Positions 2,491-23,407 of a DNA stretch of 64,000 nt are shown here, in pieces (positions within the stretch are counted from its first letter, which is position 1; the number at the start of each line of letters is the position of its first letter). Both the position numbers and the translations under genes were made by a program. This stretch comes from Dichotomocladium elegans. Lineage: Eukaryota; Mucoromycota; Mucoromycetes; Mucorales; Lichtheimiaceae. The DNA is taken from the NCBI GenBank assembly GCA_025716815.1, contig JAIXMN010000003.1, forward strand, positions 248,001 through 312,000, given 5' to 3'. The notes under the pieces are model-generated. The model had not been told where the DNA came from and ran no database searches. It saw only the letters and a program-made list of their open reading frames with translations.

Positions 2491-3648
2491 AACAAGGACA
2501 CCTCAAGACCCCAGTGGTAAACCCACTCAAGATGATAAAGCATGGCGGAATAATATCAAGCATATTGTCATGAACAGTAGGGCTACGACAATTACACATA
2601 AAAGTCCTGAATAGACGTTGAAGCCTAGTCGTGGTCAGGGAGCAATAATAAACTATTAGATTGGGATTTTCCTTGTGCTGAATATACTCGCTTCTCGACG
2701 TTTTCCTCTCTCTTTTGAAGAGCTGAATATTCCGTCTGGCGCGCATATTCTCAGCACCTTCAGCAATAGACGCTTTACTAGGGGAAATTGCTGCAATGTT
2801 GCAGCGTCGTGCGCATTTCTCGGCCTGCCGATCTCGCCTATTTGCGGGTAAACGATGGATTTTCATATGGGGCCAGACACTTGAGGATCTCGAGAAGCTC
2901 TATGCAACAATTCTTGAATAGCTTACTTGGAGGAAGTGAACAACTGAGATCGAGCTGCGGTTAATACCGACTTCCATTGAGGCAGATTGCTGGATATCTT
3001 CGCTCGCGCCAAGCATGGCATCAAGTTGATTGTAGAAGCATAATAATACTCCTTATACTGCTCGGTCGTCTTGATGCCTCGTGCACAGTCTGATCATGCT
3101 TGAGTAGCTAGAGTCAGGTGGCCAATACTCAAGTTGAGCCAGCGTTCTCCACAGACTGCCAACCGCAGAAATTATCTGTGAGGCCATATAGATTCGCCGC
3201 GATCTTGCGCGCGATTGACGCCTTGATAAGCCTGTCCGAACCTTCTTGGGAATTGCGGACTCGGGATTGCATTAGCCAACTCTTTTATTAAGCCAAATGG
3301 CCTAGTCATTTGGATTTCTTCGAGAATCGAAGAGGAGCGCAATCTCCTCGAAGGAAGCTTTGATTCTGTTGTTATAATGAGCCTTTCAAGGAGATCGTAT
3401 TTGGTGCTGGGCATGGCAGCAATTGCGGCGATTGAGTAGAGAAAGGGGGAGCTGAGTTAGGTGAAACCGTCCTACTACAGCACGGTACTTCCCTGATTGT
3501 CTCCTTGTCCCGGCTCAAGCTGTCTGGTAAAAACGTTTTGTCGAGAATCTAAACTCCTCTGCACGCCCCTTTCACCCCTTTTTCGCAAAACAAACAACCA
3601 GCACTCCCCACTCTACTCTTCCAAAAGGGCATTCCTACGCGTTCACCA
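2491..3648. other. Intergenic region and SDH1 promoter
   Basis: No recognisable gene occurs here. The left part is probably more decayed repeat DNA next to the Harbinger relic. The last 250 bp (from about 3400) has pyrimidine-rich tracts before the SDH1 start, such as CCCCTTTCACCCCTTTTTCG, consistent with a fungal promoter and 5' leader. Confidence 0.35.
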
Positions 3649-5966
3649 ATGTTGAGATTCTTGCATTCCGCGTCGTCGACTGCTGCTGTACAGTACCTCC
3701 ACCCTTTGGGATTTTCCCTCAAGTCACTAACTTCGAATACATAGTCGCGCGCTTCCGGTATGCAGCAGCCAAACCAAAAAGCTTCTCATGACAGATACGC
3801 TAATTTATAGAACTTAGGCTTCTCCACAGCTCGCATGGCTATCCGAGCCATTCACCATTCTAAGCCTGCTATGCAGGTGATGGCCACGAACCCTCTTCGA
3901 GCCAAGGAAGCTACCGTAAGCATAACTTTGGTGTAGGTTTTATCTGCTAACGTATAAGCGAATTTTAATAGGGTCCGATTGCCAGTAAGTACCCTGTCAT
4001 TGACCACGAATACGACGCTGTCGTTGTTGGTGCCGGTGGTGCCGGTCTCCGTGCTGCTTTTGGACTTGCAGAGGCGGGTTTCAACACGGCCTGCATCACT
4101 AAGCTCTTCCCCACCCGCTCGCACACTGTCGCCGCGCAAGTAAGTAGATAAGGTGGATGATTCTTGTCGTTTCTGGCTAATTTTCGTCGTATTTTCAAGG
4201 GCGGCATCAATGCTGCATTGGGCAACATGACTGAGGATGACTGGAGATGGCACATGTACGATACTGTCAAGGGTTCTGACTGGCTTGGCGACCAGGATGC
4301 CATCCACTACATGTGTCGTGAAGCACCCCATACCGTTATTGAACTGGAGAATTATGGCGTGCCGTTCTCCAGAACCCCTGAAGGCAAGATCTACCAGCGT
4401 GCTTTTGGCGGGCAGAGCCTGAAATTCGGCAAGGGTGGACAGGCCTACCGCTGCGCTGCGGTTGCCGATCGTACTGGCCACGCCATCCTTCATACTTTGT
4501 ATGGACAATCACTCCGACACAATACCAACTATTTTATCGAGTATTTTGCTCTCGATCTGATCATGGAGAACGGTGAGTGCAAGGGTGTTATTGCCTTGAA
4601 CATGGAGGACGGCACCATTCATCGGTTCCGATCGCACAAGACTGTCCTTGCCACCGGCGGTTATGGTCGTGCATATTTCTCCTGCACGTCTGCCCATACT
4701 TGCACTGGTGACGGCAATGCTATGGCCGCTCGTGCTGGTATTCCTCTCCAAGACCTGGAATTTGTCCAATTCCATCCTACTGGTATCTATGGTGCTGGCT
4801 GCTTGATCACCGAAGGTTCTCGCGGTGAGGGCGGTATTCTGATCAACTCTGCCGGTGAGCGTTTCATGGAGCGCTATGCTCCTACCGCCAAGGATCTCGC
4901 CTCACGTGACGTTGTTTCGCGTGCCATGACGGTCGAAATCAAAGAGGGTCGCGGCGTCGGCGAGGAGAAAGACCACATCTTCCTTCAGCTCCACCATTTG
5001 CCTGCGGAGGTTCTCAAGGAACGTCTCCCTGGTATCTCCGAAACCGCCGCCATTTTCGCTGGTGTTGATGTAACCAAGGAGCCCATCCCTGTCCTACCTA
5101 CCGTCCACTATAACATGGGCGGTATTCCTACTCGTTACACCGGCGAAGTCCTTCGTGTCAATGAAAAGGGAGAAGATGAAGTGGTACCTGGTTTGTATGC
5201 TGCCGGTGAGGCCGCCAGTGTCTCCGTTCATGGTGCTAACCGCCTTGGTGCAAACTCACTCCTGGACATTGTCGTTTTTGGACGTGCGGTTGCACATCAC
5301 ATCGCCGAGACTCTTGAGCCCGGCACTCCGTTGAAGCCTTTCGCTGATGATGCCGGTTCTGAGAGCATCAACAATCTGGACAAGCTTCGCAATGCTAACG
5401 GCACCAGAAACACTGCTGACATCCGTCTCTCTATGCAAAAGGTCATGCAGGCCGACGCTGCTGTCTTTAGAACCCAGGAAACTCTGGATCAGGGTATATC
5501 TGCTAGAAGAATATGAAAATGAGGCTTGAAAACTCACGGGCAACGTTACAAAGGTGTCAAGAAAATTGATGAAGTCTGGAAGACTTTCAATGATGTCAAA
5601 GTCACCGACCGTAGCATGATCTGGAACACCGATCTTACCGAAACGCTCGAGCTCCAGAACTTGTTGACCTGTGCCGCTCAGACCATGCATGCCGCCGCCG
5701 TTCGCACCGAGTCTCGCGGTGCTCATGCTCGCGATGGTACGAGGCTTCTTCTAAGATTGATGGATAGCTTGCAGCTGAACTTAATATTTTTGACTTGTTT
5801 TTTTTTAGATTTCCCGAACCGTGACGATGACCAATGGATGAAGCATACCCTTTCATGGCAAGACATGGAAACCGGTGAAGTCAAGCTCTCTTATCGTAAA
5901 GTCGAGGCGAACACCTTGGACGAGAACGAGTGCAAAGCTGTTCCACCATTTGCCCGTGTTTACTAA
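3649..5966 (+). CDS. SDH1: Succinate dehydrogenase flavoprotein subunit, mitochondrial
   Basis: This is the FAD-binding catalytic subunit of respiratory complex II, which oxidises succinate to fumarate in the mitochondrial matrix. The coding region splices from six exons: 3649-3687, 3811-3915, 3972-4139, 4200-5493, 5554-5736 and 5809-5966. Introns 2-5 have clear donors and AG acceptors. The first intron (donor GTACAG) is less certain, so ATG 3835 is an alternative start. The product is about 648 aa, normal for the family. The first 50 residues are basic and hydroxylated, as in a presequence. The Rossmann motif [17 protein letters not shown] follows. The flavinylated His lies in [11 protein letters not shown] (about residue 99). 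[20 protein letters not shown] and [13 protein letters not shown] are the active-site and FAD blocks. The C-terminus ends PPFARVY. Codon use is cleaner than in the surrounding repeats. Confidence 0.95.
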
Positions 5967-19285: not shown

Positions 19286-19890
19286 GAAGTTATACACCAT
19301 TTTTCAAAATCAAAGTCGCACCCTGCCAGTTTTGAAGTCGCAGGATCGCAAAAATACAAATCGCATTTTTGTCCGGAAATCTTTACGCGTGATGACAAAG
19401 CAAAAGTCGCATACATACACGGAAAGATGTCGCAAATCCATCTCATCCTTATGACTCTTTCTCTTTATAAACTTTTACATTTTGAAATGAGCAATCTATT
19501 ATTTTACAACGATGGCCAAGGTCATGTCGCTGATGAGGAAATGTACTCACTTCAATCCGTTTGTTCTTACACTGAATATCTGTGTAGCATATCGTGCAAA
19601 GATAACTCTGAGTTTACTCTCACACACATTCCCAAGCGAAAGGATACATACATTCGGATGAAAGAAGCGGGGATCAAGGGCAGTTACACAGCATACACTG
19701 ATCAAGGCAAGGTCAGATGTTTCAAACTGGTGTTTGAGGAGGTATTGAGTGCAAAACAGCTAGGACTCCATGTTCGTTCAGCACAGCGATGGGCATTGCA
19801 GTAAGAAAAGGATCCTGACAGCATTTTAAGAAACGTAGAAGCAGGGGGCCGATCGTGTATTCTCAATGAAGAGCATTTATTGTTCTAGAA
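19286..19890 (+). mobile_element. Tc1-like element fragment (left end and N-terminal half)
   Basis: This is the best-preserved left end of the family. GTTATACACC leads into a run of GTCGCA-containing blocks (19310-19435), then TTGAAATGAGCAATC. The transposase N-terminus is readable from about 19512 (GQGHVADEEMYSLQSVCSYT) through HIPKRKDTYIRMKEAGIKGS to LGLHVRSAQRWALQ, followed by a TAA at 19801. The DDE half is absent. Confidence 0.75.
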
Positions 19891-20329
19891 TGCAATTTTC
19901 GCTAAAAATAGCCGTACTCAAAAGAATCCTATATCGAGAAGACTAAGTTTATTCTTGGAAAGAACAAAGAACTATCAGAGTGTGCTTTCTTTGTCAATGA
20001 GCCATTTAGCCTGGGGATTGTAACTCCGAAGCTGGTTATCAAATGGAATAATGAAGTAATAGCTTTCAGGAGACTCCTGTGTTCTCATTGTAATATTCAG
20101 AGAAATTATTCATTATGTACCTACAATTTCTGAACGTATGGATAAGGATGACAGCAGTGTCGTGTTTTGTTGTGTTGTAAGAGACTGAGAGAGTACGAAA
20201 AGAAGTACAATCTTCCTACACTACACAAGTGCCGGATATGTATCGGATTATTCTTGAGATGGTCTCTTGGAATTACTTGTTGGAATTGTTTGGGATTTCA
20301 TTGTTGATTTCAGACAGCCCTCACGTCGA
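19891..20329. other. Unassigned DNA between two elements
   Basis: Short fragments of open frame occur, but none has a recognisable motif. Confidence 0.3.
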
Positions 20330-20489
20330 TACAGTGGCCGCCCCTTATAGTTATACCCTCGGTTCCAGGAAATCGCATCACTATAATGAATTGGAATAAG
20401 CCCTACCTGGCAATTTTGTCCTTCATAAAGTGTATCGCTATAACGAATTATCATTATAATGAATATCACTATAACGAGCGGCCACTGTA
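20330..20489. mobile_element. 160-bp pogo-type MITE
   Basis: The left end reads TACAGTGGCCGCCCCTTATA and the right end, on the other strand, TACAGTGGCCGCTCGTTATA. The first 12 bp are identical, and similarity continues for about 27 bp. Both ends include TA. There is no coding capacity. The interior is rich in CACTATAATGAA/CTATAACGAAT motifs. The first eight bases (TACAGTGG) match the end of the 1.9-kb pogo-like element, which suggests a related transposase could mobilise it. It lies 242 bp upstream of the Fanzor start codon. Confidence 0.75.
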
Positions 20490-20731
20490 AAACCTCATTA
20501 AAGAACCCAGTGGGAAAAAGAAAAACACTGTGGAGATGGATCATTGCTGACACTATAAATAGTGATGCTCAAGCAAGCTGTCCCTTTCCATTATCCACAT
20601 ACAAAACTAGAGCCCATTCAGCCTACAGAAAATAACACAGCACCACATTTACGGTTGAAAGTAATACGGCCGCTTTCATACTCGGCTCTGCGATACTAAT
20701 AAATAATATACCCTAGGTCTTCACCCACCAA

Positions 20732-22929
20732 ATGGCCCAACCCCACCGCCCCGTCATTCCCGAAGGCATGCGCACTGGCCACAGCATTGACCGCACTGGC
20801 CGTATAATTGGGGTGAAATCGTCCATACGGGGCATCGGCTGGCGACAGCAGTACCGTGAACGTCTGTATCAGTTGGTTGACCTTGTCCACAACACCACAA
20901 CACAGGCGTACGCGTTCGCCAAATATATTTTCATCAACGAGGCAGCGCGCGATCCAACTTTTAACATCCAGGAAAACATCACGGAGAAGTTCTTTTCAGA
21001 AGTTTGGCTCTCCATGGTTAACAAAGCCGAACGCCGCACCCAAGGTGAAACTGCCCGCATCCGAGAACTAATTAACCGCCACAAGGATGAGTACCTTCGG
21101 ATATCCGGATACGACAGGCCTGCGTTCCCTTATTCCCAGCAATGTTCTTCTTACAAGGCACCAAGATTTATACTGCTTACGTGAATAATGTCCACATGCG
21201 GTTCGGGCAACACCTTCGGCGTGTCATCAATGTCATCCTGAATCTTCGTCAGCGAAAAGCCGACCGCAAGCGAGAGTTAATCGCACAGGGCCTAAGCCCC
21301 GATCAAGTACGCCAGGACCTTTATGAAACCATCACCCGGCATGCCACAGGATTCAAGCTAGCAATTGCCCGTCGAGGTGTTTTGAGGGAAGACATTAACG
21401 CCGAACCTGGATTTCTTCGGGAAGCATACGATATCCTACAACCTGTCTTAAACGCTTACCCCCGAAACCACCAATTCCAACACCAGAGTATCTACTACGA
21501 CGCCAAGGCCAATCCTGTTAAGCATTTCAACGCCTTCTTCCAGCTTGCACGCGTTTGTCAACAGAACGGAATACGCGGATTCAACTGTTTTCCACTTCGT
21601 CGCTCGTGGTCACCATGCTACATGGAGATCGATACGAAAATCCTTTGCTACCATATCCTGGGCTGCAAAATGAAATCCCACACAAGTAATATGGAGTACT
21701 GGAGACGTGTTGTAAACCTGAAATCAAGAGCTTTCAAACCCCAAGAATCCGAGCTGCTCCAATTCCGTGGGACTATTCACACTGACGGCGTCGGTGTTAC
21801 TGTGTTCAAGAAGACAAATGGCCTTCAATCGGGTTTCGGACAGAGATTTGGCATCCAGAGCGAAGATATCGAATACGTCCCCCCACAGATACTCCGGAAC
21901 GAAGACTATAGAGGACAATGGGTCACCATTGATCCTGGCAGAAGGGACCTGTTGTATTGCGTTCATGAGAACTCGTCACCCGACAACCACCAGACCTTCC
22001 GATATACAAAGCAGCTTCAAGATCATACACGGAAGACCAAACGGTACAGCAGACTCCGAGAACGACTCAAGTTAGAGCGACCCGAGGTCGCGTTGGCTGA
22101 GCAGAGTCTATCGCAATTTCAAAGTCATACGCTTTCCGTGCCCAACTACGACGGATACCTCGCCGCCAAGAATCGGGTCTCTGTAGTTCTCAAGTCTTTC
22201 TACGCGACAACCACTACGAACCACCCGAACCCGCAATTTCTTTTTCGAAAACTTCGCCTGTCAGCGTTTTACAAGAAGCAGCAAGCAGATGAAAAGCTTC
22301 TCGATTCTTTGAATGCGAAGTTTGGCAGTAGATCCGTTTTCGTGATGGGAAATTGGTCTGCGCCGCATACAAGATATCACGAGCCTATCCGTGGTGTCGG
22401 CTTCCGGCGGCTGTTGAAGAAGAACAATTGCAATATTTATTTGGTCGACGAGTACAAGACAAGCAAGTGCTGCCCTGTATGTGACAATGAAAGCCTTGCT
22501 ACCTTTAAAATGGTTCCTAATCCACGCCCATATCGACGACCCGACAATCCGCTCACGATCTGCCATGGCCTGCTACGGTATGAAGGACGGGCATGTTGTG
22601 TTATACTTCCAAAAGATTATAATACAGTATTTTGATGTTTCAATAGATACACAAATCAAAACTGTACAGCAGGCATGGCAGAGGGTGTTTGTCAACCAAG
22701 GTTATGGAACCGGGATCTGGCGGCGGCTCTCAACATGCATCATATCCTCCGGGGTCTTCGGGAAGATGGTATCATCCCAGCAAGGTTCCAGAGAAGAAAT
22801 GCTGCACAAGCATCCGCAGCTGGTGGAAGACCACACTCACCTGAACCAGAGCAGCGCAGCGTGAGACCACGACGGGCAAGGCCAGGAAGGCCACGAGGTG
22901 CACGCTCTGGCGGGTCGAGACGACCGTAA
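20732..22929 (+). CDS. Fanzor-family (eukaryotic TnpB-like) nuclease, one frameshift
   Basis: Fanzor proteins are RNA-guided DNA nucleases related to bacterial TnpB. The frame opens at ATG 20732 (MAQPHRPVIPEGMRTGHSID). It runs to about 21157, where one missing base shifts it into the frame that continues TAYVNNVHMRFGQHLRRVIN. The middle contains FNCFPLRRSWSPCYMEIDTK. RuvC-I is VTIDPGRRDLLYCVHE (about 21922). The RuvC-II region reads FVMGNWSAPHTRYHEPIRGV, followed by LVDEYKTSKCCPVC and CHGLLR. A 123-nt intron (22578-22700, GTATGA...CCAAG) would join LLR to LWNRDLAAALNMHHIL, the RuvC-III block with its Asp. An Arg/Gly/Pro-rich basic tail follows to TAA 22927-22929. Without splicing, translation ends at 22635 and loses RuvC-III. 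Damage is minimal compared with the 8.6-10.7 kb copy, so inactivation is recent or the shift is a sequence error. Confidence 0.8.
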
Positions 22930-22948
22930 CCCCAACCAAGAATTTTCC

Positions 22949-23017
22949 GCGTCAGTTATCGCTGACGCACCCAGGATAACCACAGCCCTTCGGGGCAAGC
23001 CCCCTTCCTTTGGAAGG
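22949..23017 (+). ncRNA. Candidate guide-RNA scaffold: three tandem hairpins
   Basis: Three perfect stem-loops start 20 nt after the Fanzor stop. The first is GCGTCAG/CTGACGC with a 6-nt loop (22949-22968). The second is GCCC-TTCG-GGGC (22985-22996), whose C(UUCG)G loop is an exceptionally stable tetraloop. The third is CCTTCC/GGAAGG with a TTT loop (23003-23017). CACA (22981-22984) could pair with TGTG just downstream of the third stem. TnpB and Fanzor genes usually encode their guide RNA at or beyond the 3' end, so the position fits. Transcription and guide function are inferred, not seen. Confidence 0.4.
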
Positions 23018-23029
23018 ACGGTGTGTTGT

Positions 23030-23407
23030 AAGTCAACGGGATTGGAGAAGGCGTAGTGTTTTCTGCTGACTAACAGGGTTTCATCCATGGATGCGATATC
23101 TTTTTACCTATTGATACGACAAATTTATATAATCCTATGCGACATTTTTCTTGTATTTTGCACGACATTATTTTATCTTGTTTACGAAATTTATTTTTGA
23201 AAATAAGTATTTACTACAGAATTTTCGGTTTACAAAAGCACCTTCCATTCGTGATGCTGTCAGCTATGAGAAACGGGCATCAAATTTTTCTTCGGAAAGG
23301 TAATTTCTTCCGAGACCGAGCTTGACTACCAGAAATTACCCGCACAGCATTTGATGTTTCTGTTTACGCGACCGCTCTCAATCTTTACACGTCATTATTA
23401 TTCAACG
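23030..23407. other. Intergenic DNA, right flank of the Fanzor element
   Basis: AT-rich, with no gene. The right end of the Fanzor-bearing element should lie here, but I see no terminal repeat matching the left side. The last 60 bp is the promoter or leader of REX2. Confidence 0.3.

Follow-up and report, generated by a model that had tools for sequence, protein, structure and literature searches.

A candidate spliceosomal intron at the end of a Fanzor1-carrying Tc1/mariner-type transposon may link its omegaRNA scaffold to the flank of each insertion

Background

Where does the guide of a transposon-borne Fanzor nuclease come from when the predicted RNA scaffold stops well short of the transposon end? 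This question is raised by a locus in a 64,000-nucleotide stretch of the Dichotomocladium elegans genome (assembly GCA_025716815.1, contig JAIXMN010000003.1, positions 248,001 to 312,000), which we call the window. A preliminary description of the locus had proposed a near-complete Fanzor gene followed by three hairpins that could be its guide RNA, with the guide itself taken from the DNA just right of the third hairpin, after position 23017.

Published systems, all cited here from excerpts of the papers, offer several points of comparison. In the Fanzor and TnpB cases that we compared, the guide RNA continues without interruption across the transposon end (PMC10432273, PMC10711439). In SpuFz1 of Spizellomyces punctatus the scaffold extends across the right-end repeat and is immediately followed by the guide (PMC10432273). 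The omegaRNA of PpFz1 from Parasitella parasitica is 75 nt long, its guide preceded by a 7-bp SL1 and a 4-bp SL2 (PMC11423790; structures PDB 9cf0-9cf3). The three solved Fanzor1 omegaRNAs all have a 7-bp SL1, and the known Fanzor1 omegaRNAs range from 75 to 150 nt (PMC11423790). Bao and Jurka (2013) reported that mariner elements captured Fanzor1 and that Mucorales Fanzors lie in MuDr-like elements; the element described below resembles theirs in carrying Fanzor1 within Tc/mariner, for which the excerpts of that paper describe neither a guide RNA nor a terminal intron (PMC3627910).

The Fanzor1 gene and its product

The gene has two predicted exons:

20732..22577, + strand: Fanzor1 exon 1, with its ATG at 20732; frame-shifted in the window copy
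22578..22646, + strand: predicted coding intron of 69 nt (GTATGA...AATAG), whose removal in copy L023 joins CHGLLR to CTNQNC
22647..22929, + strand: Fanzor1 exon 2, with the zinc ribbon and WNRD (RuvC-III), ending in the stop codon TAA at 22927-22929

By its predicted sequence the protein is a Fanzor1 close to PpFz1. Exon 1 of copy L023 matches PpFz1 in the PDB with E=4.9e-118 and SpuFz1 with E=3.2e-43, which bears out the initial identification of the locus. The predicted spliced protein of L023 is 709 aa long and contains RuvC-I, zinc ribbon and RuvC-III in the order that had been described (IDPGRRD, DEYKTSKCCPVC, CTNQNC and WNRD). Although PpFz1 is homologous to the protein of the window's family, here called family A, it has 93 additional residues (1002-1094 of its chain) without a counterpart there, and we infer that the stretch absent from family A is the FRI domain. 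A Pfam search gave no Fanzor match above threshold, the TNB domain scoring 15.8 bits against a cut-off of 26.3.

The label "near-complete" is apt for the length of the DNA but not for the protein, because the reading frame of the window copy is broken. It lies over two frames (20717-21184 and 21091-22635) because 1 nt has been lost relative to other copies, and a zinc-ribbon Cys codon has become Tyr relative to L023. A stop-free exon-1 frame of 639 codons is present in 16 other copies. Fanzors of a second family, B, are about 56% identical to those of A, and over 112 codons dN between the two families is 0.205 and dS 2.60, the latter being near saturation and the B sequence coming from a copy that has a stop outside the compared piece; these values indicate purifying selection on the predicted protein.

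A recently spread family of elements

Fanzor DNA corresponding to 20732-23017 has at least 42 matches in the 39.4-Mb genome (122 contigs), with 40 of the 220 candidates scored, and many of the matches are at least 99% identical. We retrieved 20 copies together with their flanks and aligned them (L009-L028). The copies have approximately 3.9 kb in common and diverge sharply outside it, which defines the following features:

19291..19292, + strand: presumed left TA target-site duplication; the flanks of the 20 copies split just 5' of TATACACC or a close variant
19293..23207, + strand: Fanzor-carrying Tc1/mariner-type element of family A, common to 20/20 copies, with differing flanks outside
19760..19876, + strand: mariner transposase gene remnant, 39 codons matched, with one internal stop (position taken from the window ORF)
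20330..20489, no strand assigned: nested MITE-like inverted repeat whose 26-nt arms are 88% complementary; also in L023
23208..23209, + strand: presumed right TA target-site duplication, which may complete a scaffold stem once spliced

Relative to the column majority, 15 of the 20 copies carry 8-22 substitutions and the other five carry 43-55; these low counts show that family A has spread recently, in multiple copies. Internal deletions are present in 4/20 aligned copies. TA borders both ends of the 20 family A copies; no empty insertion site was found among the retrieved sequences, and the duplication status of the flanking TA is presumed.

The right end of the transposon in the 20 copies is the position of window 23207, which is 190 nt past the third hairpin (stem 3). 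The proposal that the guide comes from DNA directly right of stem 3 does not survive this result, because the transposon continues to 23207 and flanks vary only beyond that point. A guide start at 23017 is ruled out by the boundary, and the predicted start is 23210.

Family A retains only a remnant of its own transposase, and a DDE_3 domain was found in related elements. The part of copy L023 that corresponds to the window remnant shares 61.5% identity with a transposase piece of L084 across 39 aa. Pieces of L084 match Pfam DDE_3 (3437-3742, E=5.8e-14) and, below the cut-off, HTH_32. Subterminal TGCGA-type repeats are common to both transposon ends. The nested MITE-like repeat (TACAGTGGCCGC...GCGGCCACTGTA) lies at 20330-20489 in the window and at 3084-3260 in L023, and a similar one, recognised by eye, ends the G copy in L109.

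The proposed omegaRNA scaffold

The three hairpins are present as first described (22949-22968, 22985-22996 and 23003-23017), the second carrying the C(UUCG)G loop. We divide the region as follows:

22949..22968, + strand: SL1, a 7-bp stem with the 6-nt loop UUAUCG, in the proposed omegaRNA scaffold; covariation over 56 distinct sequences
22978..23027, + strand: remaining proposed scaffold, comprising the UUCG hairpin (22985-22996), a hairpin present only in family A (23003-23017), and GUGUGUU up to the proposed 5' splice site

The predicted folding energy of the 88 nt from 22940 to 23027 is -31.7 kcal/mol, whereas 200 dinucleotide shuffles gave -23.84 +/- 3.35 (z -2.35; 4/200 shuffles equal or better), a result that is modest taken alone. 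We regard the apparent covariation of SL1 across families as stronger evidence than the folding energy. An Rfam search over 22700-23400 returned a single sub-threshold match (E 0.53, 23274-23314, minus strand).

Families were labelled by pattern: 100 of 114 copies or flanks passed the 5'-site pattern and fell into A (29), B (22) and G (49). Family G was found with a B-derived motif, the UUCG hairpin plus GTAAG..., at up to 2 mismatches; the motif occurs at 212 places genome-wide and at 0 in a reversed control. Of these places, 100 were listed and 40 retrieved for reading. Both the 5' site and SL2 were in the pattern that found G, and are partly circular there. For SL1 we used a fixed-offset alignment that ignored pairing, in which the 71 copies from B and G yielded 53 different segments and A contributed 3 more. 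Across the three families, 83.2% of the cells pair, against 63.8% when shuffled, and 85 cells show double changes, against 35.5 +/- 4.2. The covariation value of 0.559 compares with 0.253 +/- 0.022 for shuffles and with 0.024-0.171 for six slid registers. Two of the five covariation measures were no better than shuffles, namely double-change pairs (6 vs 5.9) and further pair types (19 vs 16.6, 47/500). SL1 is very likely a selected 7-bp RNA stem.

The idea that related copies would preserve the hairpins through compensatory changes was upheld for SL1 but not for stem 3, which is missing from families B and G. Its absence there marks stem 3 as a family-specific insertion in A, and as a general scaffold feature it is ruled out. 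The suggestion that the 3' hairpins are a guide RNA gains from SL1, which behaves as a selected stem at the omegaRNA position, and needs amending for stem 3. At the DNA level, the 7-bp SL1 is encoded 3' of the Fanzor gene, where an omegaRNA would lie, and SpuFz1 likewise has a 7-bp SL1 (PMC10432273, in excerpt). We consider it highly probable that the hairpin region is the Fanzor omegaRNA scaffold. In families C (L033) and D (L037), inspection by eye showed no matching hairpins 3' of Fanzor.

Splice-like signals 3' of the scaffold

The scaffold end at 23027 and the transposon end at 23207 are 180 nt apart. Splice-like signals, which the preliminary description did not mention, are present in this interval in three families, with a putative 5' site, branch point and AG acceptor in register in all three despite their divergence. 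In the window they are:

23028..23033, + strand: proposed 5' splice site GTAAGT, in 20/20 copies retrieved regardless of the motif (L009-L028)
23067..23074, + strand: proposed branch point TGACTAAC, its A near 23073
23077..23205, + strand: AG-free stretch with TGCGA-type subterminal repeats, containing 0 AG
23206..23207, + strand: proposed 3' splice site AG, the final two transposon bases

With one mismatch at most and within 60 nt, TGACTAAC is found in 29/29 copies of A, 18/22 of B and 40/49 of G, and in one shuffled control in 1/29, 2/22 and 2/49, respectively. To locate the transposon end we used an anchor independent of the final bases; it placed 76 of 100 copies, of which 67 read AATA or AATG. 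Terminal AG is present in 61 of these 67 (A 27/27, B 15/17, G 19/23), including the variants AATACAG and AATGAAG, and one of the B misses, L047, is mis-anchored and actually ends in CAG.

Between branch point and end, AG is absent from 27/27 complete copies of A, 14/15 of B and 7/14 of G, the observed totals being 0 vs 120.4 expected, 1 vs 33.8 and 11 vs 51.2; these counts omit copies in which no branch point or no end was recognised (2 A, 7 B, 35 G), set aside the AG abutting the branch point in A, and are not independent, because the copies are related. The pattern that located the end mostly required AG. Shuffles of single copies gave p 0.003 for A (L017), 0.028 for B (L031) and 0.0005 for G (L115), and in ten copies tested singly the numbers of AG before the branch point were near expectation. 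In L017 no AG-free run on either strand of the element exceeds the 130-nt one at its right end; 6 of the 7797 AG-free runs in the whole window reach 129 nt, probably including the right-end run.

Part of the shortage has another source. AG is scarce at the left transposon end too, when that end is read in the same orientation (2 vs 7.6 expected, p 0.005), so the terminal repeats common to both ends explain some of it. Simulated neutral evolution of a single AG-free ancestor gave P 0.017-0.12 for three AG-free lineages. The distance from branch point to end is 36-146 nt, and the proposed terminal branch point is unusually far from its acceptor; in the coding intron, the distance between branch candidate and acceptor is 11-19 nt, and 3 nt in one case (the pattern found the intron in 5/14 loci). 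In family A, an AG at 23075-23076 abuts the branch point, and a 49-nt intron is possible instead.

A spliced guide and its alternatives

In the mechanism that we propose, the Tc1/mariner-type transposon copy, which carries a Fanzor1 gene, would also encode, 3' of the stop codon, an omegaRNA scaffold consisting of SL1 and the UUCG-capped stem. The terminal stretch between scaffold and transposon end would be excised as an intron by the spliceosome, using GTAAGT at 23028, the branch A of TGACTAAC near 23073 and the acceptor AG at 23206-23207. Splicing would link the scaffold to TA and the genomic flank, and the guide of each copy would match its own insertion site; the ribonucleoprotein would then cut the site vacated by excision, and repair using a filled copy as template would bring the element back. 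For the window copy this predicts:

23210..23229, + strand: predicted guide in flanking genomic DNA, placed by the transposon boundary, with 20 nt assumed

We think it reasonably probable that a spliceosomal intron joins scaffold to flank guide in this Fanzor element. We also lean, a little less firmly, towards the specific form in which the final two bases of the transposon serve as the 3' splice site, every insertion joins the scaffold to its own flank by splicing, and the TA duplication completes the stem. Splicing itself, use of the guide, cutting and the role in retention are what we infer from the arrangement of the DNA. We prefer splicing because the 5' site, branch point and AG are in register in three families, because the 5' site directly follows the scaffold even in A despite the extra hairpin there, and because the RNA predicted for B and G matches that of PpFz1 in the order of its stems and roughly in length (75 nt). 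The predicted spliced RNA of family A is approximately 85 nt plus guide. The repeats common to both ends offer a reason for retaining the terminal stretch in the DNA while discarding it from the RNA.

Folding of the second stem bears on the same proposal. The predicted spliced RNA of B and G reads as a 7-bp SL1, then UACC-UUCG-GG|UA, then the flank, the UA being flank-derived; with its 7-bp SL1, short SL2 and size near 75 nt it resembles the PpFz1 omegaRNA (PMC11423790, in excerpt). In copies with an exact TACCTTCGGG and a TA flank, folded with 20 nt of flank and scored as positive when at least 3 of 4 pairs formed, the second helix appears in the minimum-energy fold of 11/13 spliced against 2/13 unspliced B sequences, these counts not being independent because the B scaffolds are nearly identical to each other. 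For G the figures are 8/17 spliced and 4/17 unspliced. Single folds with flank gave the junction hairpin in L031 and L043 and not in L073 or L087, and in family A folding showed no preference for the spliced form (-19.1 spliced vs -20.6).

The leading alternative, which we consider unlikely, is one continuous, longer omegaRNA running unspliced from SL1 to 23207, approximately 260 nt, with the guide still drawn from the flank after 23209. Known Fanzor1 omegaRNAs do vary in length, up to twice the 75 nt of the shortest, and identity across families at aligned positions is 80-85% in the interior of the supposed intron and 80-82% in its 5' part, so that both parts of the stretch fall within 80-85%. 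The interior, although more gapped, is no less conserved than the 5' part, which counts against splicing. PpFz1, the nearest solved relative, nevertheless uses only 75 nt according to the excerpted paper; otherwise similar copies differ by large indels in the stretch (L010, L012, L026, L027); and intron-type signals lie in register within it. The terminal stretch is shortened, with 5' site and terminal AG kept, in L010, L012, L026, L027, L051 and L062.

Splicing could instead serve the mRNA, either by fusing it to downstream host sequence or by removing terminal repeats from its 3' UTR, while the guide is made in some other way. This reading draws on the same splice-like signals as the spliced guide, and an AATAAA hexamer overlaps the end in 52/67 anchored copies. 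We nonetheless judge it quite improbable, in view of the scaffold lying directly 5' of the splice site in three families despite the extra hairpin sequence of A, and of a junction that favours the second stem in B.

If the spliced guide is real, production of a guide RNA would depend on eukaryotic splicing machinery, and the guide junction would be predictable from DNA alone in every copy. A Fanzor could keep its omegaRNA short even where its host transposon requires an extended terminal region. This could explain how Fanzor1 lives in many transposon types, and would make the adaptation of one nuclease family to unrelated transposon ends testable by RNA sequencing. In IStrons, which combine TnpB with a group I intron, the end of the transposon holds both the intron and the guide RNA, and the self-splicing intron competes with the guide; the spliceosomal intron proposed here would, in contrast, build the guide.

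A fixed flank base can belong to a scaffold, as the IS607 TnpB precedent indicates: in the reRNA of ISXfa1 a fixed flanking base is part of the scaffold, although ISXfa1 is bacterial, involves one flank nucleotide, and has no splicing described in the excerpts (PMC10711439). SpuFz1 differs in that its guide abuts the scaffold, whereas 180 nt separate scaffold and end here (PMC10432273, in excerpt). In the excerpted main text of the PpFz1 paper "intron" is absent and "splice" occurs only in a reference title (PMC11423790). A limited search of titles, partial abstracts and paper excerpts found no spliced guides for Fanzor, and we suggest only tentatively that a spliced guide RNA may be a new arrangement.

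Scaffolds behind transposase pieces

The scaffold also occurs in other surroundings. Among the 100 scaffold places listed, 26, which include some shortened B copies, lie on the same strand as, and 150-1600 nt downstream of, one of the 150 mariner transposase pieces listed, a spacing too short for a full Fanzor gene in between; none of the listed places has a piece on the opposite strand or downstream, and a further 7 of the 100 have one 2.3-3.7 kb upstream. These pieces indicate that scaffolds occur in transposase-type elements too. Two G loci, L083 and L084, were tested for Fanzor and gave no significant match.

Both results could be taken to mean that the hairpins are mRNA 3' UTR elements or DNA sites for transposase rather than guide RNA. 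We hold this to be very improbable: SL1 has the same geometry as in Fanzor1 omegaRNAs (PMC11423790, in excerpt), and in Spizellomyces many Fanzor-free copies of Spu-1, termed ghost elements, retain the omegaRNA region, which the scaffold-plus-transposase elements here recall (PMC10432273, in excerpt). Hardly credible is a fixed internal guide, in which the 20 nt after the scaffold (GTAAGT...), alike among copies, target one constant site, because in its family G form this stretch matches the genome at 115 places when 1 mismatch is allowed, 36 of them exact, and 18 of those 36 are listed scaffold places while the 5 read of the other 18 were all decayed scaffolds (5/5).

Several minor observations concern neighbouring elements and flanks. 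By eye, a family C-type Fanzor lies tail-to-tail with a mariner transposase, a 475-aa frame (L033, L125; G000 C57 and C44). An A- or B-type scaffold was not seen in the 1.6 kb read near the 475-aa mariner (C44, L125), nor in the pieces read of L033. In the right flanks of 64 copies with TA, T or C occupies the position right after TA in 61/64, and A the next position in 40/64; the left flanks of the 20 aligned copies show weak base bias only, and no mirror of the right-hand bias. In L115, the right flank of a G element resembles Fanzor coding DNA by eye, and one element may sit inside another.
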